Source: Corallococcus carmarthensis (GTDB lineage Bacteria > Myxococcota > Myxococcia > Myxococcales > Myxococcaceae). From it: a stretch of 64,000 nucleotides of DNA. The position numbers and the translations under genes are program-made. Positions within the stretch are counted from its first letter, which is position 1. Every line of letters begins with the position of its first letter. The stretch lies in assembly GCF_003611695.1 (NCBI RefSeq), contig NZ_RAWE01000029.1:1-64000 (forward strand), written 5' to 3'. Positions 21,405 to 56,271 of the stretch are shown piece after piece. The notes under the pieces were generated by a model. That model was not told the DNA's origin, did not search any database, and saw only the letters and a list, made by a program, of their open reading frames with translations.

Positions 21405-21694
21405 AGAGCACCCCCTTCCTCGACACCCGCGTCGACGGTGCCAGCGTCCACAGTGGTGGGCAGGCACGTGTGGCCGGTGACGCCCTCCTCGTTGACGTAG
21501 GCGCAGGTGAAGGCAGCGTTGCTGTGCTCGCTGACCGCGTCGCAGTCGGCGAGCACCTGCCAGTTGCCGTCGCCGTTGCAGATTTCGGCGACATTACCGG
21601 CGCAGCGCGTGGATACCGGCGCGCACCCGTCTGGCGCGCGGCAGCGGGTGAGGAGGGCGGTGGCGAGAAGTGGGGCGAGTAGCAGTGCTTTCAT
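21401..21694 (-). CDS. Small exported Cys-rich protein (possible lipoprotein)
   Basis: 97 residues. The N-terminus, [20 protein letters not shown], is a clear signal sequence; the cysteine after LLTR is a poor but possible lipobox. Several more cysteines follow in the spacing of small disulfide-rich secreted proteins of myxobacteria ([20 protein letters not shown], then DCDAV and FTCAY). It overlaps the metalloprotease gene start. It could be an outer-membrane lysis protein, an exclusion factor or a partner of the protease. Confidence 0.6.
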
Positions 21695-22215
21695 GCGAGT
21701 CCTCGGGCTTGGGGCCTGTCGTTGAATGTGACGAGAAGGAGGTTTCTGCGAGGCCTCCGGCGGTGGAGTCCGAAGCCCGTGGGGCGCGCCTCCGTGACGT
21801 ACAGCCCGGGAGGCGTCCTCACGGCCTGCACGAGTGCGCCCATGACGTCGTAGAGGGCCCCCAGCCTGTCGCTGGGGCGGATGAGGGCGTCACCCGTGGC
21901 CGCGTCGACGAGGCCGAGGCGCTCCAAGTCGCGGAAGTGGAAGACGAGTTCGAAGCTCGTCCGGGGGCTGTTGCCGGAAGGAGTCATGCGCAATGACTCA
22001 AAGGCATCCGGCTCCACCTGGCAGGGGACACGCACGGGCGGAAATTCGCGGCGGAAGGCTTCGGCCAGGCCGTCGTCGTCCTCGTCCACCAGCACCGGCT
22101 CGCGGAAGTCCGCGTCGTACCCGCTGGCATGAGGGCCCGGGCCGGGCCCCGCCATGGCGACGGAGTCCAGGCGGTGCATCTCGGCCAAGAAGGGGAAGAT
22201 GAGCTTGCCCCTCAT
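21691..22215 (-). CDS. Head-tail joining protein, putative
   Basis: 174 residues. The pattern [19 protein letters not shown], then [18 protein letters not shown], is like head closure or stopper proteins. Start and stop both overlap neighbours by ATGA. It lies between the connector-like gene and the Cys-rich exported protein. Assignment rests mainly on gene order. Confidence 0.55.
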
Positions 22216-22853
22216 CAGGCGGCCCCGGGCAAGGAGGGCTTCACGTAGGGGGCAAGGAGGGTGTCCACCTCCGGCTCGCCGGTGAGAGGCCGCACCGCAG
22301 GGCGGATGCTGTCCAGGCGGTAGCTCTGCTCGCGCGTCCTCTCCTCCACCACCCGCCAGCGCGTGCGCTCCTCCAACGAGTCTTCATCCGCCAGGGGCGA
22401 GAGGCTGCGCAGGACGAGGAGCATGCAGGCCCGGCGGATGGCGAGCGGTGTGCGCCCCTCCGGCGTCCCGTCCGTCTCCGTGTAGCCCCAGCGCGCGCCC
22501 ACCGTGACGTTGCCCTCGCCGCGCGGGAAGACACGGCCATGGCGGAAGGTGAGGCGGGGCCCGTCGAAGCCCGGGCCCACCGGGGCACCCACCACCACCA
22601 GGCGCTCCTTGGAGAAGGACACGTCCTCCCCGTACAGCGCCAGGCGGTAGAGGCGGATGGGCGGTACCGGCGGCCAGAGAGAAGGAGTGCCGCGCCCGTC
22701 GAAGTGCAACGTCGCCGAGCGCGGCTCGAAGTGCCACCCCGTCACCTTGTCGATGGTGCGCGTCGCCTCCTCGAGGAGGACGGCCAGTCGGGTGTCGCCC
22801 GCCATGGCCGGTGTGACGCCCTCGGCGCGCATGTCGGCCACCGTGGCGTACAC
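22215..22853 (-). CDS. Head-tail connector (gp6/gp15-like), putative
   Basis: 212 residues from GTG 22853. The opening [19 protein letters not shown] then [19 protein letters not shown] is the typical N-terminal helical pattern of phage connector/adaptor proteins that bind the portal. VRWGY-like beta sequence follows ([20 protein letters not shown]), then a helix [15 protein letters not shown]. It lies downstream of the capsid gene as expected. Confidence 0.65.
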
Positions 22854-22854
22854 G

Positions 22855-23232
<378 letters not shown>

Positions 23233-23240
23233 GGTGAGCC

Positions 23241-24181
23241 TCACAACTGCACGTTGATGGCCTTGGCCGTGCCGGACTCCTCGGCGAACTTCGCGTCGAA
23301 GCGCAGCGTGGCCACCACCTTCAGCGTGCCCTCGGAGATGTCGCGCGCCGACTCGATGCGAATCTGCCGCCAGATGCCGACGTGGATGTTCTTGGGATTG
23401 GTCAGCAACACCGCCGTGCGGTCATTCGTCGCACCGAGGTTCTCCGGCCAGAGGGGGATGGGCCGCACCGGGACGCCCGAGTAGAGGACCGGCGCATCGC
23501 CCTCGAGGAACTTGTCGCCGACCGCCGTGGCCCGCTCCGCGAGCGAGTTCCGGTAGTCCAGGTCCGCGTCGACGCTGGTAAGAGGAACCCCATGCTGCCC
23601 TTGTCGCGCAGGTGCTCCGAGGGCAGCGACTTGAGCAGGTCGCCGAGGACGTCCTTGCTGATGGGGGCGCCGGCCGCGTCGACGACGTTGCTGGTGGCCT
23701 GCTTCAGCACGCCATCCATCGTGGCGAGGAAGGGGTCCGCCGAGGCCGTGTCCCCGTTGACGAGGATCTCCTCCATGTCCCTGGAGATGGCGTCCGCGAG
23801 CATCTCCATGAGCGTCTGTCGCAGCTCGCCGCGCTCGACGCTGTCTTCGAGCACTTCGTCGGAGAGGCGCACCTCGCCCTTGAAGAGCTTGGCGTCCAGC
23901 TCCACCTGGGAGAGGTCCGGCTTCACGCGCTGGGCGGCGGGGACGGCGGTGGCCTCCTGACCCGGGCGCAAGATTCGGCTCCCGAACTTCAGCTTGGAGA
24001 ACTGCTGCTTGGGGGCCGCCATCGGGACGACGGTGCACTGCTGCAGCAGGACGGACTGCTTGATGAGCAGGCGCAAGAACTTCTGCGCCTGGGCGGGCTG
24101 GAGGATGCCGCCGCCGGCCGTGAGGTCGGCGAGGGCCAGGTCCGCCTTGGCCAAGAGGGTGCTGTTGTCGATACGACTCAT
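23241..24181 (-). CDS. Major capsid protein, reading frame shifted near codon 200
   Basis: Expected product about 313 residues of the HK97-fold type. Frame one runs from ATG 24181 ([20 protein letters not shown]) and fails at minus-strand CTC-TTA-CC (23579-23584), stopping at 23402. The C-terminal part ([46 protein letters not shown]-type helix and [10 protein letters not shown]) is in the -1 frame. Re-reading one C would give [11 protein letters not shown], a natural join. A scaffold gene precedes and connectors follow, which supports the capsid call. Confidence 0.78.
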
Positions 24182-24226
24182 GGGGATTCCTTCGGCGTTG
24201 AGGCTTCCTGGTGGCGGGTGGGGACG

Positions 24227-24921
24227 TCAGACGTCGTGGAAGGAGAGGGCCTTGTCGACGCTCTCCCGGTTGAGGGGCTTGTTCATGTCGAGGGGCCAGC
24301 CGACGTCCTCGACGGCGGGCTTGGGCGGGCGCTCCGCGGGGGCGCTGCTGTTGGGCAGGCCGTGCTGCTTCTCCACGCGCCCCAGTCGCTGGTGCTGCTC
24401 CTTCACGGAGCCCTCCAGAGCGCGGACGGCGTCGGTGAGCTTCGTCAGTCCTTCCATGACGCCGGAGGCGTCGGGGCTCGGCGCGGGCGGAGTCGGCTGA
24501 GGAGCCGGCACGGGGTTGGCGGCCTTGGCGCGCGCCTCGACGTCCTCCTCGACCTCGTCCTCGGAGTCGTCTTCGTCCTCTTCCAGGGCGTCGGCGAGCG
24601 CGCGCAGGTGCTGGGCCACCTCCACCACGCGCACGCAGTCGATGCCGTCCGTGGAGGTCAACGCCTCGACGAGTGCCGTCACTGCTTCGAGGGCCTGTTG
24701 GGCTGCGGCGAGGACTGCGTCATTGGCCTTGGAGGTGTCCGAGGCGGCGTGGTTGTCGCCCTCGGCCTGCGAGGTGTCCTGGGGAGCGTCGTGCATGGTG
24801 TCTCCGTCTCGCTTCACCAAGAGGAAGCGGTGCTTGTTGGCGGCCCTGTCCACGAGGGACACCTCCTCCACCACCATGTCGACGAGGCGGTGGACGGAGG
24901 CGGGGCCTTGGGTGGTGCTCG

Positions 24922-24925
<4 letters not shown>
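24227..24925 (-). CDS. Capsid scaffolding protein, putative
   Basis: 232 residues. The N-terminus has [20 protein letters not shown], a signature often seen where phage scaffold or prohead-protease proteins meet the capsid. The middle is very acidic ([20 protein letters not shown]), then Pro-rich, then a coiled-coil-like helix ([20 protein letters not shown]). Location between the protease and the major capsid gene fits an internal scaffold that is degraded on maturation. Confidence 0.7.
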
Positions 24926-26269
<1,344 letters not shown>

Positions 26270-26277
<8 letters not shown>

Positions 26278-26455
26278 CGCGCAGTCCCTCCGGGTCGAAG
26301 CCCCACGCCAGCTCTCCCGAGGTGGGGAGGTTGAGGTCGCGAGGCCAGACGACGGGCGTCGCCTCGGCCTTGGCCGTGGAGGTCGACTCCTGCGTCGTCG
26401 CGTTGCCCTCCGGCGTCGGAGGTGAGGTGGGGGTAGGTGTCGAGGTGGCCTGCAT
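26270..26455 (-). CDS. Small Thr/Pro-rich leader-type protein
   Basis: 61 residues beginning MQATSTPTPTSPPTPEG, low-complexity first half, ending PTSGELAWGFDPEGLRDG. It starts 22 bases downstream of promoter-like motif D and overlaps the methylase-protease gene start by 8 bases. It may be a translated leader that couples expression. No domain recognised. Confidence 0.5.
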
Positions 26456-26474
26456 GGCGTTTCGTCTCCGAAAG

Positions 26475-26510
26475 AGACAAAGGCCTGCGACGCGAAATCG
26501 GGGACATCAC
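26475..26510 (-). promoter_or_regulatory. Phage late promoter-like motif, copy D
   Basis: Minus strand GTCCCC (26500-26505), 17 bases, CTTTG (26478-26482). It occupies almost the whole gap between the gp7-like head gene and the next small gene, so head genes downstream would have their own transcript. Confidence 0.65.
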
Positions 26511-27590
26511 TCAAGTGACGGCGAGCGTCGTCGTGCGGCAGAGGCCGTGGTACGGCGGGAAGCCCACGCCCGCGTCCGCGAGCTGCCTGTCCGAAGCGAG
26601 CGCGCGGAACTCGCCGACGTCGTCGCGTGTGCCGGCGGCCGAGCGGAGCACCTCGGCCAGGCGCGTCTCCTGGCCTCCTCGGTTGACGTAGAGGAGCGAG
26701 CGCCCCGTGTCCGCGTCGAGGCGTTCGCGCACCCAGGGCAGCTCCTGCTTCACATCCTCCGGGCGCTCGAGGGACTCCAGTCGCTCGAAGCGCTGGAGGG
26801 CCTCGCCCACGGAGAATGCCTTCCCGTGGAGGAAACGGCACACCTGGGTGGTGGCCTCGTCGAGGATGGCCTCGATGCGGTAGCGGCGGATGCCGGCCTC
26901 GGCGTAGCTGCTCACCTGGGCGAAGGAGCGCCCCTGGCCAATGAAGTGGCTCGCCACCACCTCCCAGTAGAAGGGGGCACGCTCGATGAGTGTGCCGCGT
27001 GCGGCCCGCTCCAAGGACTCGGCGATGTCGCTTCGCCCGAGGCCGGCCTCCAGCCCCTCGGCCACGAGGCGCCGGGCCTCCTCGCCGAAGGCGTCCAGCC
27101 GGCGCCCATACTCGTCCCGCACAAAGTTGCCCTGGGTCCGGACGATGTGTTGGGCCACGCGCCTGTCGACGGCGTTGAAGCGGGCGGCGAGGGCGAGGCC
27201 CTGCTCTCGCCGGGCGTGGCTGCGCGTGGACGCCACCACCTCGTCGGCTGCGTCGCCGAGGGGCGCCTGGATGCGGGAAGGGATGACGGCCGTCCGCCGG
27301 CCCGCAGCCTCCAGGGATTGGGCGACGAGGCGCCTGCGCTGGGCGGCCGTCGTCTTCCTCCAGTCCACGTCGAGGACGGCCACCGCCTCTCGCATGGCGT
27401 CCACGTCCGCGCGCCCGACGGCGCGGCGCAGGCGCGCGGCAAGCAGGGCCACGGCGCGGTCCATGCCTGCAGCGGTGCCGACGTCCAGGGCCTTGGCCAC
27501 CGGCAGCCGGAGGACGTCTCCCAGGAGAGCGTCCGCCACCTCCCGCGCCTCGTGCAGGAGGAGGAGGCTGTCAGCGGGAGCCGTGCACAT
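26511..27590 (-). CDS. Minor head protein, SPP1 gp7 / Mu gpF family
   Basis: 359 residues from ATG 27590 with AGGAG. The C-terminal domain shows the family core: YRIEAILDEATTQVCRFLHG with KAFSVGEAL, then the metal-binding-like end GFPPYHGLCRTTTLAVT. The first 230 residues are long helices. gp7/gpF proteins bind the portal and enter the head or protect DNA ends. Order portal, zinc-ribbon protein, then this gene fits phage head operons. Confidence 0.8.
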   Translation of the reverse strand: MCTAPADSLLLLHEAREVADALLGDVLRLPVAKALDVGTAAGMDRAVALLAARLRRAVGRADVDAMREAVAVLDVDWRKTTAAQRRRLVAQSLEAAGRRTAVIPSRIQAPLGDAADEVVASTRSHARREQGLALAARFNAVDRRVAQHIVRTQGNFVRDEYGRRLDAFGEEARRLVAEGLEAGLGRSDIAESLERAARGTLIERAPFYWEVVASHFIGQGRSFAQVSSYAEAGIRRYRIEAILDEATTQVCRFLHGKAFSVGEALQRFERLESLERPEDVKQELPWVRERLDADTGRSLLYVNRGGQETRLAEVLRSAAGTRDDVGEFRALASDRQLADAGVGFPPYHGLCRTTTLAVT

Positions 27591-27848
27591 GGGGGGGCTC
27601 CTGCGTCACCAACTCCACGGAGCTGCGGCGCTTGGCGCGCACTTCGACTCCTGCCGTAGTGGGGGAGAAGACGACGTCGTGGCTGGCCGCGCACCTGTCA
27701 CACAGGGCGAAGACGAGGAGGCCGTTGCGCCAGAGCGTCGTCGTCTCCTCCAGGGGGCCGCGCCTTCGGCACATGCGGCACTCCAGGACACCGCGCTCGG
27801 CGTCGGCCTGGGCCTGGAGTACCCACGCGCGCTGAAGCTGCTCAGGCA

Positions 27849-27852
<4 letters not shown>
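27571..27852 (-). CDS. Zinc-ribbon protein in head operon
   Basis: 93 residues. Two CxxC pairs, ECRMCRRRG and LCDRCAASH, separated by about 23 residues give a zinc ribbon. It overlaps the portal stop (two adjacent ATG codons at 27847-27852) and the next gene by 20 bases, so it is translationally embedded. The role is unknown; it may assist portal or head-protein assembly. Confidence 0.6.
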
Positions 27853-29644
<1,792 letters not shown>

Positions 29645-29648
<4 letters not shown>

Positions 29649-29845
29649 GGACGGTCCTCCACGTAAGCCAGGAGGCCCGTGGGGGTGTGAGAAACGGCGC
29701 GCACGCGCTGGCCGCGTGCCGCCAACTCGGCGTGGACTGCCTCCAGCAGTCCGTCGTGGGTGGAGGCCTCGACGGTGAACTCCGGCCCGGGGTGTGGCGC
29801 GCCCGAGGGAGAGGCGAGGACGAAGACTCTGACGACGCTCTGCAC
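29645..29845 (-). CDS. Small protein at head of the late operon
   Basis: 66 residues from GTG 29845 with GGGAGG upstream, ending in a GTGA overlap with the portal gene. Sequence VQSVVRVFVLASPSGAPHPG then LLEAVHAELAARGQRVRAVS, compact alpha/beta-like. Function not recognised. It would be the first gene of the transcript from motif E. Confidence 0.6.
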
Positions 29846-30146
29846 ACGGGCCTCCCGGACCAAGTGGAGGCAAGGCGCGCGGTGGGAGGGGTGCCCTCGA
29901 TGTGCGAGGGCGTTGGGGGCCGCGCGCCTCACCTCCAGCGAGGACAAAGGCTTCGGGCCCAATTTCGGGGACATCCGGCGCGCGCTTTTCGCTCAAGGCC
30001 CGCGCCTCAATGAGTTGCCTTCGTCGGGGGACAGAGCGCTATTGGCGACACCTGCGGCTGACGCGGGAGCCCGCGCGCGAGCCGAAGCGCATGCGTGAAG
30101 GCACCTGCACTGCCGAGAGTCACAGAGACGATTGGGAGGGCTGCTG
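29846..30146. other. Intergenic region between divergent units, contains promoter-like motif
   Basis: About 300 bases between the portal operon (leftward) and a small plus-strand gene. It holds motif copy E at 29942-29976. A plus-strand ribosome-binding site GGGAGG sits just before 30147. No further gene is supported. Confidence 0.5.
29942..29976 (-). promoter_or_regulatory. Phage late promoter-like motif, copy E
   Basis: Minus strand GTCCCC (29967-29972), 17 bases, CTTTG (29945-29949), about 100 bases upstream of the first gene of the portal operon. Confidence 0.6.
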
Positions 30147-30428
30147 ATGAATTCAAACCCTGAGTGCTTGATGCGAGAAGAGGACGCGCGCGGCATCGCG
30201 CCCGCCGGTGACGTTGCCGCCATGATGGCCGACGTGACGACGTGCCCATGTCCGTGCTCCGAGCGAGAGGACGAGGCACACCATCCGAGCGACTACCTCG
30301 TGGCGGCCGAGGAGTACCCCGAGCACCCTGCTGCCCAGGCCGGCTACGTAGGGTGGGTGTTCTGCCTCCACTGCGGCGCGTGGCGCGCGGACGATGACGA
30401 CGCGCCCGACGCGGACTGGGTGCCCTGA
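30147..30428 (+). CDS. Small acidic protein with cysteine pairs
   Basis: 93 residues from ATG 30147 with GGGAGGG. CPCPCSERE and FCLHCGAW could bind a metal, and the C-terminus is acidic (DDDDAPDADW). It is the first gene of the plus-strand accessory region. No family recognised. Confidence 0.5.
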   Translation: MNSNPECLMREEDARGIAPAGDVAAMMADVTTCPCPCSEREDEAHHPSDYLVAAEEYPEHPAAQAGYVGWVFCLHCGAWRADDDDAPDADWVP

Positions 30429-30476
30429 CGCGCGCTGCGCCCGTGCGGAGAGCGGGCTGCACGAACCCCGCTCCTC

Positions 30477-31060
30477 ATGGCAGGACCGGCTCTGTCCTTC
30501 GTCCATGGCGAACACGTTGGAGCCCCTCTTCAACGTGGAGGAGACACCAGAGACGCCTACCGTGTCGCGAAACTGCCCGCGCGCCTGCGCGGCTTCGCGC
30601 AGCCGGACACGAGCACGCAGCCCGAAGGCTACGTCGAAGCGGGCGGCTACCTCGTGCTCGAGGAGAAGGCTCGCCACCCCACGCCCGACACCGACTACGT
30701 CCGGTTGCTGGTGCCGCAGTTGCGCGGGCTCGACACCTGGGTGTGCACGCGCTGGCACACCCAGCGCTACGCGACGCTCGTCTCCCAGGAGCGCTCGCCC
30801 GCCATGGCCCGGCTGTTGTTCGACAGCGAGCCGCTCGCCGTCTTGGAGGAGCGGCTCACCACGCTCCTGGGGGCGTTCCTCGACTACAGGTATGACGGGA
30901 GCAGGGCGTACTACCCGCGGGCGCTGCCGGGCGTTCGCGTCCCACTCGCGCCGCCTCGGCTGAACAACTGCTGCACCTTCGTCGAGGCCCTGCTGGTGAA
31001 GGACTTCTCCGAGGCGCATGGCGCGTGGGACCGCGTCGCGCGTGCGGACGGTCATCAGCG
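30477..31060 (+). pseudogene. 5-prime part of a split gene (decayed copy 1a)
   Basis: The frame encodes a continuous stretch (YRVAKLPARLRGFAQPDTST through TLLGAFLDYRYDGS) to PPRLNNCCTFVEALL. Homology to a second copy at 35062-35577 stops soon after about 31040. The matching 3-prime half of this copy reappears at about 34160-34510, so about 3.1 kb of DNA separates the two halves. No good ribosome-binding site or intact start was found. The intact protein may have been papain/NlpC-like (a Cys in NNCC, a His in SGHTF); that is inference. Confidence 0.55.
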
Positions 31061-31379
31061 ACCGTCGGGCGGCGGAGGAGGTGCTCGGCAACCTGGGGGG
31101 CCTATCGTCGCACTCGCAGCCCACGCGAGCGCAGTCGCCGCCGCAGCCGTGTCCTTGGGGCTTGACCGACCGCGCGGGAGACGCGGAGAGAGCTGCCTGA
31201 GGAGCCCCCGGGAAAGGGCCGGTATGCCCTGCGCCTGAAAGTCTCCCCGACCGCCTGAACCAAGAATCTCTGCCGGGTCCCGTGGCAGCGATGTGGGGTT
31301 GCCCCCGACCGTCGTCGCCCGGCAGAGTCCGAGGATACGGAGCATTGTCCTTCCTTCACCTTCGCTGGCACAAGCACTC

Positions 31380-33836
31380 ATGGAGAGACGTCGAAGCGCC
31401 GATCCGGGCCGTCCGCCTCGACGGGAAGCCGCCGGAAGCAGCCGCCATCCCACGGCGCAGGACGTGGTGGGCGTTCTGAAGGAGGTGCGGCCCAGCGGGT
31501 TCGGCTTCGCGCAGCCGCTCACCGGCGAATCTCGCGACGACATCTTCCTCAACGAAACCCGGCTGGCCGCCCTGGGCCCGGCGCAGGAACGACGTCCCCA
31601 GGCGCTGCTCCTGCTGGGCGTCATCGAGAAGGGCGACGGAAAGCGCTCGGCCGTGCGCGCTCGACCGCTCGACCTCCGAGATGCGCGCACAGCCTCGCTC
31701 CTATGGGACCGGGTGTTACAGGGAGGGAGTCGAGGGCTCGACGTCGAGCGTCTGCGAACGCTGGTGCCCTCCTTGCCCGTTGCGCTGCCGCTGCTCTTTG
31801 TTCTGCTCGACGAGCGGCCGGGCGACATGGGCCTCTTCGACACCATCGTGTCCCTGATGCCGGGCAGCATCTGGCATGAGCCGGCGCTGCGGCCGATTCT
31901 GCACCTGGCGCCTTCTGCAGCGCGTGGCGACGTCTTCCTCGAAGCGCTGCGGCACGATCCCGAAGCGGCGCTCTCCCTGCTCGTGGATTGGAACGCGAAG
32001 CGCCGGCTGTTGGTGAAGGCGGCCTGGCTGGAGACGTTGTGGCGGCAACTGCCCGCCCGGTGCGCGACGCTGGTCGAACTCGCCCAGAGCACCGGCCCGA
32101 GCGGCGAACCCGAAGAGAGGCTCCAGTGGGCGCGCCGTGGCATCGACCTGGGTGTCGGCGACCGCGCGACCTGGTGGGAACGGATCGCCAACGCGGTGGG
32201 CGAGCTGGCCGCCGCACCGGCGAGCCGAAAGAACGCGCCCGACGCGGCCATGGACGATTGGACGCCGCTTGCCGTTGCACCGTCGTCCGTCGTCCGCGCA
32301 CTGCTGCGGCGGTGGTATCCGGACATCGCCGCTGCCCTGCAAACCCTGGAGTCGGTGGCTAACTGGAGCCGCGAACAGGCGGCGATCCGGGCGGACGCGT
32401 TGTTGAAGGACCTCGACGCGCAGGACCGTGAGCTGGCTGAACAGTGGGTGCAATCACGAGCGCTCGGCGAGAACACGGAGCTGCCGGTCCGCGCGCAGAT
32501 GCTCACGGCGCGCGCCGCCGAGAAGTGGGCATCGCGCTATCTGCAGTCGCTGGGACTCGGGGTGCGTGATGTCTCCATCGAGCAGCTCCAGCCGTCACTG
32601 AAAGAGTGGGTAGCGATGGACCTGCAGGTCGACGGGCGCCACGGCGTCGACGTGAAGAACTGTAGGCGTACCGTGAACGGCGGCATGCGCAGCGGCCGCT
32701 GGAAAGTGAAGACGTTCAAGGCGGACGCCGCGGGACGGAAGGTGACCCTCTGTGGCGTCAGCAGCCCATACACGCGGTGCGCCGACGACGGAACGCTGTC
32801 GGTCTCCGGGGTTGAGTACATGGTGGTGCTGGGGGTGACGCACGCGGCGGAGGTGGATCAGTTGCTGCGGAGCTTCCGCGACGTCTTCGACGCGCACACG
32901 CCCGCGCGCACCACCCTGAAGGAAATGCCTGCCTGGGCGTGGGACTATCCCGACGCGCACTACCGCAAGCGCAATGACGCGCTGATTGCGCTGCGGGCCG
33001 CTGCAGGCGACGGCGTGTCGGTGCTCGCGCGCCGGTGGCATCGGGAGCTGCCGCCACTGCTTTGGTCCATCTGGAACGTGGAGTCGCCGGGCTTTGCGCA
33101 ACTCGATGATCAGCAGCGTGCCTTCCTGCGCGATCTCGGGGAAGCCTGGCGCAAGACGCAGACCGGCGATGCCGTTCCGTCGTCCGTGCCACGCCTGCCC
33201 TGGCTCTACCTTTTCACCCTGCATGCGTGGTTGCGATGGCGCCGGTCGGGACGCCCGTCGGATGCAGGTCGTTTGAAGGCGCTGTTCACGTCATGCCCAG
33301 AGCCTTCTGCCGAGACAGACGAACCGTTCGAGGAGCTGCATGATGCGGTCGACGAGGACGAGCAGGACGGAGAGGTGACCGAGGAGCCATCCCTGTCGAC
33401 TCGAACCGGCGGTGCGCCGCTGGCCGCGGGCATCGGCATTGCCGATCCCGCTCACACCCTAGACTATCTGCTCGATGCCCTGGGAGTGCTGGATCAGCAC
33501 CTGTCGGCCGCGGAGTTCCAGCGCATCGAGCGGTTCACGTTCCACCCGAATGGCGTGCTGACGGGCACGTATGGCGATGGCAAGCGGCGGACGTTGCTCG
33601 CGCACTGCGGAGGCCAGCTAGAGAAGCGGATGGTGGATTGCGGCCACTGGCCGCTGACCTTTGGCCGCAACGAGACTTGCGCATGCGGCCGGCTAATCTG
33701 CCATATGTGCTCGTGCTGTACGGCATTTGGTCAACCCACCTGCCCACATGAAGTCGAACGGAAAGAGCGTGCGCGCGAAGCCCTCAGCCGCCTGATGTCA
33801 CCCCGGGCCAGGAGACGACACTCGAGTCGCTCGTGA
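31380..33836 (+). CDS. Large protein with cold-shock-like domain, PD-(D/E)XK-like core and Cys cluster
   Basis: 818 residues from ATG 31380; a GTG at 31293 would add 29 low-complexity residues. Residues about 30-65 resemble a cold-shock/S1 nucleic-acid-binding unit (VVGVLKEVRPSGFGFAQPL, then DDIFLNE). Around residues 390-430, AAEKWASRYLQSLGLGV then DLQVDGRHGVDVKN looks like a restriction-endonuclease-type core ending in D-x-K. Near 765-790 a cysteine cluster (CACGRLICHMCSCC) could bind zinc. It lies in the segment that splits a decayed gene. Defence function is an inference from this architecture and its cargo position. Confidence 0.6.
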   Translation: MERRRSADPGRPPRREAAGSSRHPTAQDVVGVLKEVRPSGFGFAQPLTGESRDDIFLNETRLAALGPAQERRPQALLLLGVIEKGDGKRSAVRARPLDLRDARTASLLWDRVLQGGSRGLDVERLRTLVPSLPVALPLLFVLLDERPGDMGLFDTIVSLMPGSIWHEPALRPILHLAPSAARGDVFLEALRHDPEAALSLLVDWNAKRRLLVKAAWLETLWRQLPARCATLVELAQSTGPSGEPEERLQWARRGIDLGVGDRATWWERIANAVGELAAAPASRKNAPDAAMDDWTPLAVAPSSVVRALLRRWYPDIAAALQTLESVANWSREQAAIRADALLKDLDAQDRELAEQWVQSRALGENTELPVRAQMLTARAAEKWASRYLQSLGLGVRDVSIEQLQPSLKEWVAMDLQVDGRHGVDVKNCRRTVNGGMRSGRWKVKTFKADAAGRKVTLCGVSSPYTRCADDGTLSVSGVEYMVVLGVTHAAEVDQLLRSFRDVFDAHTPARTTLKEMPAWAWDYPDAHYRKRNDALIALRAAAGDGVSVLARRWHRELPPLLWSIWNVESPGFAQLDDQQRAFLRDLGEAWRKTQTGDAVPSSVPRLPWLYLFTLHAWLRWRRSGRPSDAGRLKALFTSCPEPSAETDEPFEELHDAVDEDEQDGEVTEEPSLSTRTGGAPLAAGIGIADPAHTLDYLLDALGVLDQHLSAAEFQRIERFTFHPNGVLTGTYGDGKRRTLLAHCGGQLEKRMVDCGHWPLTFGRNETCACGRLICHMCSCCTAFGQPTCPHEVERKERAREALSRLMSPRARRRHSSRS

Positions 33837-34160
33837 CGCTCTCCGCAGACGCCGCAGCCGGTTGCTGGCGCGGATGGAGCGGCGGCTAGTGCGCACGGTG
33901 TGGGCCTGGTAGGGGCGATGCGCAAAGCGGCTGGAGGCGACGGGCAAGCCGGGCGCGGGAACTGGGCACACTGGGTGGAGCGATGTAACAGCTCGCCCTG
34001 CCCCGGGGTGGAGCAACCCGCCAAGCAGCCGCGTTCCACTCGGAGTGGGAACTGGGCGCGGCGAACGCTGACTCGGTGTCCGTCTGGCGGGCTCCCCACG
34101 CTCGGCAGGCCGCTGCTTCTCCGCTTCTCGGACGGGGTACGGCGATCAGATACGATCTCT
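33837..34160. other. No gene recognised
   Basis: About 320 bases after the large nuclease-like gene. Open frames here are shadows of GC-rich composition. The stretch ends where the 3-prime half of the split gene resumes. Confidence 0.4.
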
Positions 34161-34540
34161 CCTCCTCCGTGACGGCTACATACCGTCGAGTCCGGAATGG
34201 CCCTGCCAGCACCGTCGGCGGATGTGCCGCCCCAGCCCTCGACGCTCATCCAGGGCTGGCGCGGCCAGTGGCGCTCCGGGCACACCTTCCTCGCGGTGGA
34301 CTACCAACCCGGAGACGGACAAGGTGCTGGTGCTGGAGTCCAACGCTGCCTACGGCCTCGACGGCGTCAGCTACCGTGGCCTCGGCAACCTGCGGGACGT
34401 CGGCCTCCAGCCGCTTGCGCAGTGGTGGACGCGGAGCGAGGTGTGGACGTGGCGCCGCATCTGCTCGACGTACTCCTTCCGGAGGCAGGCTTGGTTGAAG
34501 GTCAATGAGCGTGGAGCGGCGCGGCTAATCGGGAGATTCT
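34160..34540 (+). pseudogene. 3-prime part of the split gene (decayed copy 1b)
   Basis: It is highly similar at nucleotide level to 35255-35590. The segments PSTLIQGWRGQWRSGHTFLAVD and KVLVLESNAAYGLDGVSYRG fall in two different frames because of a one-base insertion near 34310 relative to copy 2. It ends in ICSTYSFRRQAWLKVNE. It is the continuation of the gene begun at 30477. Confidence 0.55.
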
Positions 34541-35061: not shown

Positions 35062-35577
35062 GGCCGGGGGAAAGGAGTTGCCGATCTTGCGGCGGCCTAT
35101 CCCCTGGCGCCGCCTCGGTTGAACAACTGCTGCGCCTTCGTCGAGGCCCTGCTGGTGAAGGCCTTCTCCGAGGCGCGCGGCGCGGCCTTCTCTTGGGACG
35201 CGCGTCGTCACCGGCAGATGATGATCGCCTCCACGACCGACTACTTCTCCCCGGTGACGGCAGCCATCGAGTCCGGCATGGCCCTGCAGGCGCCGTCGGC
35301 GGATGTGCCTCCCCACCCCTGGACACTCATCCAGGGGTGGCGCAGCCAGTGGCGTTCGGGGCACACCTTCCTCGTCCTGGACCACCACGCGGAGACGGAC
35401 AATGTGCTGGTGTTGGAGTCCAACGCTGGCTTCGGGCTCGACGGCGTCGGCTACCGTGGCCTCGGCAACCTGCGCGACGTCGGCCTCCAGCCGCCTGCGG
35501 ACTGGTGGACGCGGAGCGACGTGTGGACGTGGCGCCGCATCTGCTCGACGTACCCTTCCGGCGGCAGGCTTGGCTGA
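35062..35577 (+). pseudogene. Decayed copy 2 of the duplicated gene (5-prime truncated)
   Basis: The frame opens after stops at 35053 and 35059 without a start codon and reads LAAAYPLAPPRLNNCCAFVE, then YFSPVTAAIESGMALQAPSA and SGHTFLVLDHHAETDNVLVL. A one-base deletion near 35550 relative to copy 1b changes the last residues and causes an early stop. It preserves the middle part that copy 1 lost. Both copies are therefore broken. Confidence 0.55.
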
Positions 35578-35709
35578 AGGTCAAGGCGCGCAAGATGTAG
35601 AGGCTCTAGAACGGTGAGCACTGCGGCAGCTCGAAAGAGCATTCCGACGGTCCAAGAACTTTCAGGGCAGCAGCCTGATTACAGAGTCCCGGTTGGCCTG
35701 CGATGGGCG

Positions 35710-37182
35710 TTATTCCTCTTCAACGCTATCATTGGTCTGACGCCCCTCTCGCAGCTTGCAGTACTCCTTGAGACCTTGGTGAACCTTGCCCTTGGTTGCT
35801 CCTTGGTCCCATCGCGCCCCTGGTTGCTGATATCGGAAGATCCAGCTGCTCCCACCGTATCCAGAGGCCTGTTGATAGCCAATGATTGAGAAATTAAAGA
35901 GAAGTTCAAGTGCGAGGGCGGTGGTTGGTGAGTCCGGACTGCGACGACTTTCGTATTCTCGGGCGAAATCGGAGACGTTGAATGTGATTGTTCGGATTGC
36001 GCTCAAGGCATCAAGGGCGACTGTCCAGTTCTTCCAGTGGGGGACTACCTCGTCGTCGAGTTCGAGTTTTAGATAGGTTGAATAGTCGGAGCGTGCCTCG
36101 GAGATGTCCGGATTTGTGAAGTAAGGGGGCGGCTGCTGTCGGGACTTCGTTATTTCGAGTGCCACGTTGCAGTATTTGATGACGTCTCTGGGGCGAAGAT
36201 AAGTTCGTGCGCAGATGTGGTTCCATTTGCTTTGGGAGCCTCTCATTAGCTCGGAGTCTTCCATGTCGGACCAAGAGACCTTTTGGTCGAGTTTGACGCG
36301 CGCACGCTCCTCAAGAAGCTTCCGGAGTTCTTCGGTTGTCCATTCAATTGTTATTGCTTGAGATTCGGCTAGCTTGTTTTTGTCGGAAAATTTCAGGTCT
36401 TCCCAGAGGTCGGTTCGTAAATACACTATGGGGGAGATGGTTGGCGTGGTGCGCTCAAATCTCCTTCGGACCTGTCGCGCTGCCAGGATTAAGCCGATCA
36501 GCATGTTGGCGCGGCTTTCGTCAAGCACGGACAGGCCTTGGTCTAGTTCATCGAAGTGCAGAAGTATTGTATGGCTGCCCAATTCTTCGCTGGCAACCTG
36601 CTCGATGCTCTCAAATATTGCGCTCGACAAGGCGTCGAGTTCTCGACCTAGCTTGGTGTCTCCGGAGCTTCTTTTGAAGTCTAGCTTCCCAAGCTTATTC
36701 CCAAGGATGGTTGGTTCAAATGAGCCATCAATCTGGAGTTCATCGGGTAGGAGGATGTTGCCTGTTTCGGTATTTATTGAGCCGTAGTTACTCTTTAGGA
36801 ATTTCTCTATCTTCTTTGCGTGCGGTCGACTGGGATCTTGGGCTCGCGCAAGAACTAAGGAGCTGAGTTCGACTGCTATGAAGAACTCCCACGATGCTCT
36901 GTATGCTTCGATGGCGCTGGCCCCGGCGTCGATGCGCTTTGCATGCATTGACCAGGGGTATGATTTGAACTTCAGTGCTTTTGAGACGATATTTCCGGCC
37001 GTGCGCTCTGTGAATGCCCTGACCAAGGCTGTTTTGCCGGAACCTTTTCGGCCGAGCACCAAGAGTCTAGTCCCAGCCGCGATCGATTTGTGTGCGTTGG
37101 TTGAGAGGAAGTATTCTAGGACCGCATCATCTTCTGCGGCGACTTGGCCGAACTCATCGATGCGAGTGATGTCGACGGGCAT
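35710..37182 (-). CDS. P-loop ATPase, Sll1717-like
   Basis: 490 residues from ATG 37182 with GAGGCACC. Walker A GRKGSGKT is at about 44-51 and Walker B LLHFDELDQ at about 207-215. An arginine-rich stretch follows (ARQVRRRFERTTPTISPIVY). The layout fits P-loop ATPases of the Sll1717 type, some of which occur in mobile or defence contexts. The gene is strikingly AT-richer than its neighbours, pointing to recent acquisition. It sits just downstream of the terminase gene on the same strand, as phage cargo. Confidence 0.65.
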   Translation of the reverse strand: MPVDITRIDEFGQVAAEDDAVLEYFLSTNAHKSIAAGTRLLVLGRKGSGKTALVRAFTERTAGNIVSKALKFKSYPWSMHAKRIDAGASAIEAYRASWEFFIAVELSSLVLARAQDPSRPHAKKIEKFLKSNYGSINTETGNILLPDELQIDGSFEPTILGNKLGKLDFKRSSGDTKLGRELDALSSAIFESIEQVASEELGSHTILLHFDELDQGLSVLDESRANMLIGLILAARQVRRRFERTTPTISPIVYLRTDLWEDLKFSDKNKLAESQAITIEWTTEELRKLLEERARVKLDQKVSWSDMEDSELMRGSQSKWNHICARTYLRPRDVIKYCNVALEITKSRQQPPPYFTNPDISEARSDYSTYLKLELDDEVVPHWKNWTVALDALSAIRTITFNVSDFAREYESRRSPDSPTTALALELLFNFSIIGYQQASGYGGSSWIFRYQQPGARWDQGATKGKVHQGLKEYCKLREGRQTNDSVEEE

Positions 37183-37300: not shown

Positions 37301-38735
37301 TCAGCCAAGCACGCGCACGCCGATCTCCCCGCTACCTCGCCGCTCCGGCCCCCGTTCGCGCTGGCAGGCCAAGGCCACGGCCCAGAACTTGTCCGCGTGC
37401 CCACGGTTGGTGCGCTCGGCGTCGAAGGAGACCTTCCCGGAAGGGAGCACCCGGCGCTTGATGGAGTGAACCTGCCCGACAAGCTCACGCTCTCGCGGAA
37501 GGGTGACGTCGCGCCGCTGGAGGAGAATCTTGAAGTCGGTGGCCCAGCGCTCCTTGGACTCGTTCGTGAAGTTCTCCGCCACCACCTGGGGGAAATCCCG
37601 AGCGAGGTTCTCCGCGAGATTCATGCCGATGCCGCTGCGGTCGACGGACATGCGCGCCACGGGCAGGACGGAGAGGATTCTGCGGAGGTGGGCCTCCTGC
37701 TCCGCGAAGGGGACACCCTCGAAGCTCTTCAGCATGCGGCAGGTGAAGCGGCCCTGCGCTTCCTCGAAGACGGCTAGCTCGGAGCGGTCTCGGGTGCGCC
37801 CCACGTCGAAGCCCGCCACTAGGCGGCCCTGGGGCGCGGGCATGTCGGAAGCGTCCTGGGCCAACACCAACTCGTCGGTGGTGCACGGGAGGATGAGCTC
37901 GTAGGGGAGGAAGCTGTAGGACTCGTCGACGTAAAAGGCATTCAAACTCCTGCTGGAAGTCCTCCTGCGGCAGGGAGTCGAACTGCTCCACCAGCACGGG
38001 GCGCCCGAAGCGAACGACGCGCTCCTCGGTGGGCATGAGAGGGGCTTCCACCGCGGCGCGTCTCACGTCCAGGCTGAAGAATCGGCACAGCCACCAGGGC
38101 ACCTGCTGGCGCGTGTGGTGCGGGTACTTGCGCAACTCCTGCGAAGCGATTTCCCAGAAGATGCCTCGCCGGCCCAGCGGCGTGCTGCAGCCCGTGAGCT
38201 GCCCGTGGGAGCGGAGGATGAGTGCGGTGCTTCCGGTGTAGACCTCGCGGTCGTTCACGTAGTGGGCCAACTCGTCGAGGTACGCGTCGCCGCGCTTGCC
38301 GCGAGGTGGCTTCGAGGGCACGGAGATGATGCGCGAGAGGCGGCGGCCCTTGGCGTTGGACTCGAAGGCCAACTCCGTCTTCGCGTCGGTGACGAGCTTC
38401 TTCTTGAATGCGGTTGGCAGCTCCTCGTACACCTGCCGGGCGATGAGCACCTTCTCCACGGCGTCGCTCAAGTTGTACGAGACGAACACCGCCGTATGGC
38501 CGTCACGCAGGTGGCAGCGCGCGAGGGCTTCCAACGCGAAGAGGAAGGAGAAGCCCACCTGGCGGCTCTTCGCCACCCAGCGGAAGCGGGAGCGGTTGTC
38601 CAGCAGCGCCTGCTGGTAGGGCTCCAGCACCACGGGCTCGCTGTCGTAGTGGCACAGGCCGGAGATGAATCCCGACTCGGTGGCGAGCCACTGAGTGAGG
38701 TCGTTCTCGGTGCGTTTGACGATGCTGAGCGTCAC
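37301..38735 (-). CDS. Terminase large subunit, reading frame shifted by one base near codon 267
   Basis: Expected product about 477 residues from GTG 38735 with GGGAGGA. The ATPase half has [20 protein letters not shown] (Walker A-like), then [10 protein letters not shown] (Walker B). The nuclease half has [20 protein letters not shown] and [20 protein letters not shown]. The two halves are in different frames, meeting at minus-strand CTT-TTA-CG (37932-37937). Skipping one T gives [12 protein letters not shown]. As in the sheath gene, the break is +1. It powers DNA packaging through the portal. Confidence 0.82.
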
Positions 38736-38815
38736 GCTGTCCTCCCTGCTTGTGTCGTTGCTTTCTCTCGGCACCAGAGCGTGCATGGCCGCGTCCTCTT
38801 CACGAAGGAGTCGCC

Positions 38816-39430
38816 ATGTCTGCCTATGCTGCTGTCGCCCGCGCACCCCGCACCCTCACGGAGAAGGAGGTGGCGCTCCTGCTGCGCGCCACGGGGGAGC
38901 ACCGGGATGGATTCCGGGACCACTGCCTGTACAGCCTCGCGCTGGCCTCGGGCCTGCGTGAGCACGAACTGGTGGCCCTCAACATCGGTGACATCTTTGA
39001 CGAGCGCGGGCGCGCACGCCGGCACGTGCTGCTGCACGTCTTCAAGGGCTCCCGCCGGCACCCGCGCCCCCAGGAGGTTGTCCTCTCGGACACGGTGCGC
39101 GCGAAGCTGGAGAAGCTGCTGCGGCTGAAGCGCTCGCAGGGGCACGACGTGGGGCCCCTGGCACCGCTCTTCCTGAGCCGCCTGGGACTGCGCCTGTCCA
39201 CGCGGCAGGTGCGCCACGGCTTCGGAGTCTGGCAGCAACGCGCGGGCTTGGAGAGACACCTCAACTTCCACGCCGTGCGCCACACCGCATGCACCGGGGT
39301 GTACCGGAGGACGAAGGACATCCGCCTCACTCAGCGCTTCGCGCGCCAGCGCAGCATCGACTCCACCGTCATCTACACGCACCCCTCGGACGACGAGCTG
39401 GTGCGCGTGACGCAGGACCTGCCCTGCTGA
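38816..39430 (+). CDS. Tyrosine recombinase, catalytic domain only
   Basis: 204 residues from ATG 38816 with AAGGAG. Catalytic motifs are [10 protein letters not shown] (Arg about 48), [10 protein letters not shown] (HxxR, about 152-155) and a tyrosine in [13 protein letters not shown] (about 187). The usual second His is replaced near RFARQRSID. There is no N-terminal core-binding domain, so it is shorter than XerC/D (about 300). It is divergent from the terminase gene. A second recombinase of a different family (serine integrase at 54.7 kb) exists, so this one may resolve dimers or be cargo. Confidence 0.7.
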
Positions 39431-39550
39431 TGGGGAATGCCGCCTCCGCGCTGAGGGCCCGCGAGAGCCCCTGGTTGGGCCGGGGTGCCGCGCGGAGGCG
39501 GCGAGGCGCGGCTTTGCCCGGGGCCCGCGCGAGCTGGCCCAGACGCGGCC

Positions 39551-39584
39551 GGCGAAAGTGAACAGCGCGAGGCGTTCACTTACC
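39551..39584. repeat. Inverted repeat with AAGTGAAC/GTTCACTT arms
   Basis: CGGCGAAAGTGAAC on the left is mirrored by GTTCACTTACCGG on the right, about 10 bases apart. It looks like an operator for a dimeric protein. Similar half-sites continue across the next 900 bases. Confidence 0.45.
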
Positions 39585-40045
39585 GGCCGCAAATGATCAG
39601 GGGAGGGGTGTTCACTTTTTCGGGGCTGACCCTCTCGAAAAGGGCCCCAGGTACACGCCCCGGCGGCGAGGCTCGCACGAAAAAACGCACCACCCCCCAC
39701 CCTGGCGTCAGGGGTAGGCGGGGTAGGCGTGCTGGCGTCATCGGTAGGCATGGTTGCGCCCGGCAGGGGCAGGCAGTGAAGGTGACGGGGAGGAGCTGCG
39801 CCGCGCGGCGGGCGGCAGGCGGCCCCAACCAGCGGAAAGCGGCCATTGGCCTCGGCGCTTCGGCCCCCCACGAGGGCTCGTAAGCGCGCGAAACAGCGTG
39901 GGGGCGGTGACGCCGAATGGCCGCCTTTGCCTATTTTCGGCCATTCGGCTCGGCCCTGGTAACGGCACGCGCGCCCAGGTGCGCGCGGGGCGGAGGGCCG
40001 GTGCTTCGAGGGCAGCTCGGGGGCTCGTGGGGCTCACGAGGAAGA

Positions 40046-40076
40046 CAAAGGCCTGCGACGCGAAGCGCGCGGGGAC
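40046..40076 (-). promoter_or_regulatory. Promoter-like motif, copy F (20-base spacer)
   Basis: Minus strand GTCCCC (40071-40076), 20 bases, CTTTG (40046-40050). Its internal half is identical to copy D for GCGTCGCAGGCCTTTGTC. The nearest minus-strand gene downstream is the terminase, 1.3 kb away with the recombinase gene between. Confidence 0.35.
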
Positions 40077-40468
40077 ACGCGGGCACGAACGGGGCGCCAC
40101 GCGGCGGAGGCGTTGGCGCGCGGGGCTGACCGGGGGCTCGCGCCAGGTGGGCCACGTGGCGGCCAGCGGGGCGCAGCGGAGCAGGGCGTCCCGGGCCGGG
40201 GAAGTGAACGGCGCGCTGGCGTCCGGCCCGCTGGACGGAGTGTGCTTCCGGGCGCGAGTTCAGGCCCAAACTCGTACCGCGGCGCTCATGGACCTGGTGG
40301 CTGTCCGCCCTAACCTCGCGAAACTACGAAGGCTGTGGCGCCAGGCGTGTGCTTCTGCGCGCTAGGTGGAGCTCCCGGGGGAAAGTGACCAGGCCAGGCC
40401 TGGCGCGGCGAAAGTGAACGGCGAAACTGAACGCGAAAGTGCCCGCGTTCACTTACCGGAGGGCACTC

Positions 40469-41464
40469 TCAGGCGGGGTCGGCGGGGGGCGCGACGTCCG
40501 TCGGTGGATCCACGAGGACGTCGTCCTTGGGGCTTTCCGAGGAGGCCGTGTCGAGGTCCTCGTCGTCACTCGCCGTCACCTCCGCGTCCACCTCGCCGCG
40601 CACGGCGGGCGTCGTCTCGCGCGCAGCTCGCAGGGCCTGGGCGTGTCGGGCCTGGAGGCCCTCCAGCGAGAAGCTGGCGTGCAGCTCCTGGCGGGAGTCG
40701 GCGCCGCCTTGGACGAACTCCTTGAGCCTCACCATGGTGTTGAAATCGGTGGGGTTGTCGACGCGCACGCGGCCCTCGGACAGCGCCTCCTCGAAGCCGA
40801 GGAGGTAGCCGTCAATCATCTTCAGGGCGTCGTCCTTGGAGACGGCGATGGCGTTGGCGCGCAGTTCAATCAGCTTCTGGTCCGCCTTGGTGGCGATGCG
40901 CGTCTTGGCCTCCTCGCGGCGGCGCAGGCAGTTGTGCTCCTTCGCGTAGTTGGCGACGAGCGAGGTGGCGACACCGAAGCGCTCCGCCAACTCGCGGTAC
41001 GAGGCGTAGGACGTCATGGTGGAGCCGTCGGGAAACGTCTTCACGTCGCCGAAGACGAGGGCGCGGTCCAGCTCCTGGCGCGGGAGCGCGGGCTCCTCGG
41101 ACTTGCGGGGGCGGCCCGTTTTTCGCTTCGGAGGAGGAGGAGGCGCTTCGTCCAGTGCGGCCATCTCGTCCGGCGCAGGCGTCTCGTCCGGCGCGTGCGT
41201 CTCGGCCGGCTGCTGGCCCGCGAGGAGGCGCTTGCGGCGGCCGAGGCAGTCGTGCTGCTGGGCGTACTTGGCGACGGCGCTGTGGGCGACGCCGAAGCGC
41301 TCGGCCAACTCGCGGAGAGAGGGGAAGCGCCGCTTCACACGGCCCCGCGTGGTGGGCACCTCTTCGCCCTCCACGAGGAGCCGATCCACCTCGTCATGAG
41401 GAAGCCGGGGGCCTTCGGCCTTGGTGGGGCGCCCCAGCTTCTTGAGGGGCTTCTTCTGGGCCAT
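40469..41464 (-). CDS. Probable terminase small subunit with two tandem DNA-binding modules
   Basis: 331 residues from ATG 41464. Two related modules each begin with an AT-hook-like GRP element ([20 protein letters not shown]). Each continues with an LP-x-E-x-D-R segment, then the helix-turn-helix [20 protein letters not shown] or [20 protein letters not shown], ending HDCLGRR or HNCLRRR. A helical oligomerisation-like region follows ([26 protein letters not shown]), then an acidic tail. Gene order relative to the large terminase fits TerS. A transcription regulator is the main alternative. Confidence 0.6.
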
Positions 41465-41472
41465 GCCTTCCC

Positions 41473-42282
41473 TCAGCAGCCACTGGAGGGCTGCGCTGCG
41501 GTGTCCACGGCCTGGGTGCGCAGGCGCTGCATCAGCCGCGTGCGCTGGCGCTTCAGGCGCTGGTACACCCGCTCGACCTCGGTGGTGTCGCCCTCGACGA
41601 GGCGGCTGGCGTAGGCACGCAACTTCTCTCGCCGGACGACGGTGGCCATGAGGACCTCGACGTCGCTGCGAGGCAGGGTGGCCTGGGCCAGATGCACCAG
41701 CACGGCGTCGCGCTTCACGAAGCTGCGGCGGACGCTGGGCCGCCTGGGGCTCTCCACCAGCGTGGCGTGACGGGTGTCCGGCAGCCACTCGGCGAGCTGC
41801 GCCTGCGTGTACGTCTCGTGCTGTTCCGCGCGCTCCTTACGGAGGTGCCGGAACACCTCGCGCGCTGTCTGCTGGCGCAGGCGGACGGCCGTCCAGTCAC
41901 CCCAGCGGGAGAGAGGGAAGGCGCGCGCGACGGAGAGGAAGGTGGCGAGAACGAGCTGGTCCAGGTCCTCCCGGGGCACCGCGCTGCCGAGGAGGCGGCG
42001 GCGCAGGCGCCGCAACATGGGGGCGTAGGCTGCGGCGAGGCCCGCCGTCCACGCGGGGCTGGAGGAGGCCTGCATTTCGGCCACCAAGGCCCGAGTGAGG
42101 GCTTCCCGCTCCGGGTACGTCTCCTCCCGCGCGTCAGCCAACGCGACCAGCACCGATTCGAGAGTGGAGTGGCGCGCGAAGGCGGGCCGCCGCGTGCGCG
42201 CAGCCGCGAAGACGGCGTGGTGCCGAGGGGAGAGCGCCTCCACACGCAGCAGGCCGAGGAGGTGGCCGAAGAAGTCATTCAC
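41473..42282 (-). CDS. Sigma-70-like factor (leftward operon)
   Basis: 269 residues from GTG 42282, overlapping the previous stop as GTGA. A region-2-like block is [20 protein letters not shown] with [20 protein letters not shown]; a region-4-like block is [20 protein letters not shown] with [19 protein letters not shown]. Its arrangement parallels the protein at 46734-47582, suggesting paralogy. It immediately precedes the small-terminase gene and may direct RNA polymerase to late promoters. Confidence 0.55.
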
Positions 42283-42617
42283 CGAGGACGGGCCTCCCAC
42301 CACTCGCGCACCAGTTCGAGGAAGTCATCCAACTGCATGGTGACGAGGGGCGGCTGCCCGTCGTCCTTGCACACGGCGAGCGGCCAGCGACCCTGCGGGC
42401 ACGTCTCCACCGCCTGACGCATGGCCTCGCGGACGTTGGTGCGCTGGTGGGCCTTGGCCTCGACCCAGAAGCACGGCACCTCGACGTCGGACATCTCCTG
42501 CCCGGTGCGGTACTGGAGGCCGCGGCGAATGAGGGCCTCGGGCATCGCCTCACGGAAGCGGTGGACGAGGGCGCGCTCGAAGTCGGCACCCTTGCGACGG
42601 GAGGACGCGCCGCTCAC
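42279..42617 (-). CDS. Holliday-junction-resolvase-like PD-(D/E)XK nuclease
   Basis: 112 residues from GTG 42617. GASSRRKGADFERALVHRFR, then RRGLQYRTGQEMSDVEVPCF with WVEAKAHQRT, form the E...D...ExK pattern of Hjc/resolvase-like folds. It is coupled to both neighbours by GTGA overlaps. It would cut recombination intermediates before packaging. Confidence 0.65.
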   Translation of the reverse strand: MSGASSRRKGADFERALVHRFREAMPEALIRRGLQYRTGQEMSDVEVPCFWVEAKAHQRTNVREAMRQAVETCPQGRWPLAVCKDDGQPPLVTMQLDDFLELVREWWEARPR

Positions 42618-43273
42618 GAGACACCTCCTGACTCTTCTAGCAGCCGCTCCATGTGCCCGCCACGGCTCATGCGCACGGCGAGGCGGCGAGCCACCTCCAG
42701 TGCGCAGCGGGCGTCCGCCATGGCGCGGTGAGGCGTGGGGCGGTGGATGCCGAAGTGCTTGGCCAGGGCGTTGAGGGAGAGGGACTCCACCTCGCCCGTG
42801 GCGAGCAGCGGCCATGCGAGGCTGGCGGTGTCGAGGCGGTGGTAGTCGACGCTGGGCAGAGCCAGCCCGGTACGGCGATACCCCTCGGTGAGGAAGCCCC
42901 AGTCAAAGCTGGGGACGTGACCGGCCACGAGGGTGCCCGCAAGCAGCGGCGTTGCGGTGGCCAAGACTTCCGGCAGGGGCAGCGCGTCCCGCCACTCCTC
43001 GTCGGAGTAGCCGCACACGGCCAGGGCTTCGGGCTGGGCGTCCGCCAGCCGGGTGGGCAGCACGCGCGCCTCATACTCCGCCAGCACCTTGAGGCTGCGG
43101 GCGTCGACGCGGAGGATGGCCACCTCCAGCACTTCGTGCCGGGAGGCGTCCAGCCCCGTCGTTTCCAGGTCGACGAAGCAGAGCGTCCGCAGGTGCGGTG
43201 GGAGGCTGGGGAAGAGCGGCGGGTGGAGGGCAGAGGCAGGGGTGGTGTCGGAAGCAGGGTGAGCGGACAGCAT
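42614..43273 (-). CDS. DnaQ-like 3-prime to 5-prime exonuclease
   Basis: 219 residues. ExoI FVDLETTGLD is at about 33-42, ExoII GHVPSFDWGFL about 117-127, and ExoIII HRAMADARCALE about 182. These give the DEDDh set (Asp, Glu, Asp, His, Asp). About 28 unstructured residues precede the domain. It sits in the replication/recombination operon between the RecB-like nuclease and the resolvase, so proofreading or DNA-end processing is likely. Confidence 0.85.
   Translation of the reverse strand: MLSAHPASDTTPASALHPPLFPSLPPHLRTLCFVDLETTGLDASRHEVLEVAILRVDARSLKVLAEYEARVLPTRLADAQPEALAVCGYSDEEWRDALPLPEVLATATPLLAGTLVAGHVPSFDWGFLTEGYRRTGLALPSVDYHRLDTASLAWPLLATGEVESLSLNALAKHFGIHRPTPHRAMADARCALEVARRLAVRMSRGGHMERLLEESGGVS

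Positions 43274-54727: not shown

Positions 54728-56267
<1,540 letters not shown>

Positions 56268-56271
<4 letters not shown>

Follow-up and report, generated by a model that had tools for sequence, protein, structure and literature searches.

A prophage of Corallococcus carmarthensis carries an inserted gene for a large protein in which a predicted cold-shock-like domain, a predicted PD-(D/E)XK nuclease domain and a C-terminal cysteine cluster follow one another in a single chain. We give about an even chance to the reading that this nuclease, with its putative nucleic-acid-binding domain, is prophage cargo that works on its own against competing phages, by restriction or by abortive infection. 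The window, i.e., the whole stretch of DNA analyzed here, comprises 64,000 nucleotides, and the features discussed are listed in Table 1.

Table 1. Positions of the prophage genes, the interrupted gene, the insert and the cargo protein in the window
Feature	Position	Strand	Remarks
Portal gene	27849-29996	minus
Terminase-like gene	37485-38846	minus	Score just under the Pfam cut-off
Serine recombinase	54724-56271
Interrupted gene, 5' half	30549-31025	plus	97% DNA identity to the unbroken G006 copy up to 31025
Interrupted gene, 3' half	34159-34512	plus	Frameshifted near 34315-34322; holds Ser-Gly-His (SGH) motif
Insert	31026-34158	plus	3,133 bp; junctions read against the unbroken G006 copy; same block in G002
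Shared unit of insert	31026-33985	plus	94.6% identity to G104, with other flanks there
Extra right-hand segment of insert	33986-34158	plus	Found only in the window and G002
Cargo protein ORF	31380-33836	plus	818 aa from ATG; 847 aa from GTG at 31293
Cold-shock-like domain (residues 27-96)	31458-31667	plus	AlphaFold2 model; VIA; Foldseek
Helical region (residues 102-337)	31683-32390	plus	AlphaFold2 model; part weakly like TPR/PPR-type repeats
Nuclease domain (residues 338-525)	32391-32954	plus	Isolated fold model, structural matches, conserved residues
Cysteine cluster (C743, C754, C767, C769, C774, C777, C780)	33606-33719	plus

The prophage, the interrupted gene and the insert

Portal, terminase-like and tail genes, together with a serine recombinase, mark a prophage in the window, and the same prophage is present in another genome of the genus (G006), to which window positions 21564-31025 and 37301-42934 align at 91-97% identity with short gaps. 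This alignment and the phage genes around the insert agree with the original prediction that the locus lies inside a prophage accessory region. The cargo stretch is situated between the portal and terminase genes, and the gene for the cargo protein is on the strand opposite to the structural genes. Prophage relatives carry different genes in this stretch; because the one in Corallococcus sp. CA053C (G002, the closest same-genus match of the window) holds a PD-T4-6/Stk2-like Ser/Thr kinase and another unknown gene there (L025:9970-11436 and L025:8271-9698), the portal-terminase interval looks like a cargo hot spot. The cargo stretch of the window also contains a minus-strand AAA ATPase-like gene (35710-37182; weak AAA_16, ORC-CDC6-like and PDC-M28C matches), which has 52% G+C, compared with 68% for the window, and lies outside the aligned part of G006.

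The insert had been thought to separate two halves of one gene, and in G006 the halves are indeed joined, forming an unbroken, 366-codon open frame (a 300-aa protein when counted from the conserved Met). Unbroken relatives of the gene occur in four further Corallococcus genomes (G001, G003, G007 and G011) at 76-79% protein identity. Read against the G006 copy, the left half stops at 31025 and the right half restarts at 34159, with 3,133 bp taking the place of 59 bp of the intact gene. This measured length matches the roughly 3.1 kb proposed from the sequence, and the earlier coordinates (halves at 30477-31060 and 34160-34540, insert at 31050-34165) are correct to about 35 bp at the junctions. 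In the 5' half, protein homology begins at 30552 (tblastn, 94% over 163 aa), and an Asn-Asn-Cys-Cys (NNCC) motif is found at about 30963-30974. Judged by eye from its NNCC and SGH motifs, the interrupted gene resembles a Cys/His hydrolase; a Pfam search gave no named family. As its right half is additionally frameshifted, the interrupted host gene is dead. Its 3' part is present a second time (35104-35590), about 600 bp further downstream, in a 5'-truncated copy that is 90% identical to G006 and retains both motifs.

A replacement event would have put the insert into the host gene. The insert contains no transposase or integrase gene, and its junctions display no evident terminal repeats or target-site duplication. 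Judging from its other copies, it is composite, consisting of a unit shared with G104 (a genome from another genus of the family) and an extra right-hand segment. Positions 31013-33985 are matched at 94.6% identity at a different site in G104; since the first 13 bases of this match also occur in the host gene, the true left edge of the insert is at about 31026. Window positions 30472-34511 are matched in G002 by a single unbroken alignment (95.2% identity), so the insert there has the same junctions. An alignment of the left end of the insert to the tail of an IS91-type transposase was equalled by 347/1000 shuffles and was dropped. Outside the window, in G104, a decayed IS91-like transposase fragment (L051:16931-17230) starts exactly at the end of the shared unit, which hints at how the unit may have moved there.

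An insert that splits a gene might also encode an endonuclease of the homing type or one that belongs to an intron or intein, and the PD-(D/E)XK homing enzyme I-Ssp6803I is among the top structural matches listed for the nuclease domain described below. The insertion is imprecise, however: it cost the gene 59 bp and ends on the right with an additional 173 bp; the right half of the host gene is frameshifted; an Rfam search for an intron gave no match; and G104 has the same unit at an unrelated site. The imprecision, the frameshift and the missing Rfam match led us to reject an intron or intein, and we regard this entire explanation of the splitting, already largely refuted, as highly improbable.

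The cargo gene and its predicted domains

The insert encodes one large protein, as originally proposed, and its ORF is open in all three lineages that carry it (the window, G002 and G104). Across the ORF, 112 substitutions separate the window from G104, along with three indels whose lengths (12, 6 and 3 bases) are all multiples of 3, and 0 stops were observed against 4.0 expected: when the same substitutions were placed randomly, the mean was 4.0 stops, and zero stops arose in 1.6% of trials (P about 0.016). The G+C contents at the three codon positions (0.72, 0.52 and 0.80) are as in coding DNA. On this evidence, we consider the cargo protein real. Its start is either the ATG at 31380 or the GTG at 31293, and relatives align from about residue 27 in ATG numbering.

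A dN/dS of 0.46-0.61 points to selection on the ORF, not strong in view of these values, and a ratio near 0.5 also fits relaxed constraint. The same ratio would suit a formerly active gene that hitchhikes in the prophage with little function left, as would the dead host gene around it and the condition of two relatives, the Belnapia copy being interrupted by an IS66-like element and the Synechocystis copy frameshifted. Such decay is countered by the 112 substitutions and three indels that brought neither stop nor frameshift, and by the retention of the catalytic and cysteine residues in all three myxobacterial copies, and we consider it rather unlikely.

The full-length AlphaFold2 model, built from a nine-sequence alignment, has a mean pLDDT of 77 and a pTM of 0.67. 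The nucleic-acid-binding beta barrel of the original prediction reappears in it as a predicted cold-shock fold, a five-stranded OB barrel of about 70 residues (residues 27-96) that matches CspA (2l15) with a VIA Z of 10.2 and 1.9 A over 68 residues and several cold-shock domains with a Foldseek probability of 1.00. Since Pfam sequence models gave no match to the window protein at E up to 1 (OB_RNB reached 0.16 in one relative), we term this domain a cold-shock-like fold and not a Pfam member. The helical region that follows gives VIA Z scores of 7.0-7.3 to PPR10 and MamA over 94-95 residues, within the range (Z < 8) where, as the tool warns, a match can reflect a common arrangement.

Because Foldseek matches of the whole model came mostly from the cold-shock part, residues 338-525 were also modelled alone, with a resulting pTM of 0.80. 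The core of the PD-(D/E)XK superfamily has the order alpha-beta-beta-beta-alpha-beta; the isolated model comprises, in domain numbering, a helix at 30-53, strands at 78-80, 84-91, 119-124 and 145-151, and a helix at 152-168. The VIA matches listed for this domain number 50, all of which we take to be PD-(D/E)XK superfamily enzymes; with Z of 5.5-6.2 and a Foldseek E of about 0.1, they are individually weak. They represent the SPARDA effector, Eco15I, NhoI, archaeal Hjc resolvases, I-Ssp6803I and, in numerous entries, influenza PA, a redundant listing in which many rows are the same protein and about five folds are independent. Among the residues of the domain, E381 is on a helix and D414 and D424-V-K426-N are on strands, with K447 following, and E381, D414, D424, K426 and N427 are invariant in 12 sequences at identities down to 21%. 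Thus, the PD-(D/E)XK motif (a D and a (D/E)xK, often with an E on the first helix) has its counterparts in D414, D424-V-K426 and E381. The assignment is credible because the weak matches agree on the superfamily and the E, D and DxK residues are invariant, and there is good reason to think that the cargo protein carries a PD-(D/E)XK nuclease. Structure prediction and fold search have in this way supported, through weak matches to a predicted fold, the nuclease-like core suspected at the outset. The C-terminal cysteine cluster, likewise noticed in the original prediction, comprises seven cysteines that are invariant in the 12 sequences and form a possible metal site. A sequence-profile search of the PDB with the cargo protein yielded nothing useful.

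Distribution and neighborhoods of the family

No model in Pfam, NCBIfam or PHROGs matched the window protein, nor did any family in PADLOC 2.0.0 with E up to 1. As far as can be told from these databases, the family is without an entry, and beyond the open-access literature covered here, it may go by another name. Its long members, with the cold-shock part, occur in Variovorax, two Solimonas and two Lysobacter, and its short members, without this part, in Roseomonas, Sinorhizobium, Microvirga, Belnapia, Rhizobacter and a Pseudomonadales MAG. The sampling, whose counts take in the center genome each time, recovered the family in 3/195 Myxococcota, 1/369 genomes of the Solimonas class and 3/249 genomes of the Belnapia family, and by these counts its occurrence in Myxococcota and Pseudomonadota is rare and patchy. 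A same-family match in G028 (E 9e-4) failed on translation, a weak check in which only the plus strand was translated. Two relatives are damaged: that on a Synechocystis plasmid (L005:6010-7388), which is cyanobacterial and far outside the other hosts, is frameshifted, and the Belnapia relative (L032:4955-9407) is split by apparent IS66-type transposon genes.

For a gene in a prophage whose structural region is long, a role in phage lysogeny or the lytic cycle, or as a counter-defense nuclease, would be natural. But the cargo gene is absent from the same prophage in G006, and a search of 50,697 phage records and IMG/VR found no relatives, such that a role of this kind seems improbable.

Several relatives adjoin genes of defense systems. 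The Sinorhizobium relative has Gabija GajA and GajB directly downstream (E 1e-227 and 2e-176); DpdD, DpdB and DpdJ were matched near the relative in Solimonas SE-A11, MzaD/MzaE and AIPR near that in Lysobacter A03, GmrSD_N and RelA/SpoT near that in Lysobacter A6, and KAP and Leo-like GTPases near that in Belnapia. Annotated genes for Vsr, HNH, cytosine methyltransferase, HEPN and DUF262 are close to the relative in Roseomonas OT10, and an annotated phosphorothioation-associated methyltransferase is close to that in Microvirga. At least 4 of the 13 non-Myxococcota relatives (Variovorax, R. gilardii, Solimonas marina and the Pseudomonadales MAG) have no evident defense gene nearby. At a threshold of 1e-15, distinct PADLOC-matched proteins, counted from family tables, amount to 10/60 in the neighborhoods of relatives, against 6/93 in controls (p 0.04); dropping generic matches, which was done on the neighbor side only, leaves 7/60 (p 0.20). 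The controls are nine stretches from six of the seven genome-collection hosts, each lying apart from the relatives, with plasmid loci left out, and both the counts and the assignment of DpdB, DpdJ and MzaD to loci were made by hand from summaries without member lists. Given the hand counts, the one-sided removal of generic matches and the omission of plasmid loci, the defense association is suggestive only, and the enrichment appears weak. The defense cargo of the original prediction remains putative: the Gabija, Dpd, Mza and GmrSD-like neighbors speak for it, and the relatives without an evident defense gene and the weak enrichment over controls speak against it.

A nuclease for DNA repair, recombination or RNA processing, serving the host or the prophage, would account for the archaeal Hjc resolvases among the best structural matches listed, for the cold-shock domain (such domains are common in RNA handling), and for one relative that lies, judged by eye, between parE-like and parC-like genes with a VapBC-like pair. 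The scarcity of the family, its mobile settings and the recurrence of defense genes as neighbors all argue against such a role, which we regard as unlikely.

Comparison with known systems and proposed function

Among the matches listed, the closest solved folds of the nuclease domain are Eco15I, NhoI and the SPARDA effector (VIA Z 6.0-6.2), with which no sequence relationship was detected and in which, to our knowledge, there is neither a cold-shock domain nor a C-terminal cysteine cluster. On paper, the cargo protein appears somewhat like two other systems, as follows, and we do not file it as a member of either.

(i) CoCoNuT. The CnuC protein of the Type I-A system (McrC branch) carries a cold-shock-like OB domain and a zinc ribbon alongside its PD-(D/E)xK nuclease, as well as DUF2357, coiled coils and a beta-sandwich, and it works with an McrB-like GTPase in a restriction system predicted to target RNA (PMC11090510). 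The cargo protein similarly has predicted PD-(D/E)XK and cold-shock-like parts and a cysteine cluster in a single chain, but it stands alone, in another domain order, and a GTPase partner was not seen adjoining. Pfam gave no DUF2357 match to it, and the AAA gene in the cargo stretch matched AAA_16 and ORC-CDC6-like models, not McrB.

(ii) TALON/TOTE. In this predicted immune system, TPR-CSD proteins act with a PD-(D/E)xK nuclease of NERD type, encoded by separate genes along with a YprA helicase and TBP (PMC12458937). The cargo protein likewise brings a helical region, a cold-shock-like domain and a PD-(D/E)XK nuclease together, as predictions and all within one chain, and no YprA-like helicase, TBP or separate TPR-CSD gene was named among the neighbors scanned, which are a part of the total.

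With moderate confidence, we regard the cargo protein as a defense factor that most likely acts by itself against competing phages, through restriction or abortive infection, and for its action we infer cutting, a substrate (RNA, ssDNA or dsDNA), a trigger and an anti-phage role. The N-terminal cold-shock domain, perhaps with the helical region, would bind single-stranded nucleic acid; the PD-(D/E)XK domain would cut phage or cellular nucleic acid, using metal ions held by E381, D414 and D424, plus K426; and the C-terminal cysteine cluster, which probably holds zinc, would complete nucleic-acid or partner binding. A bolder version, possible but doubtful, is that the relatives constitute a new family of stand-alone anti-phage nucleases, which occur in short forms (lacking the cold-shock domain) and long forms and which plasmids and prophages have distributed through Pseudomonadota and Myxococcota. 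In this family, recognition of single-stranded phage RNA or DNA by the cold-shock domain would set off cleavage by the fused PD-(D/E)XK domain.

The long and short forms provide a natural test of what the cold-shock domain contributes, and the same prophage without the insert (G006) can be compared with G002, where the insert is present. If the cargo protein is a defense factor, it would add an undescribed family to the PD-(D/E)XK immune nucleases, and its built-in cold-shock domain would be a simple sensor of single-stranded nucleic acid, with no second protein needed for the task.
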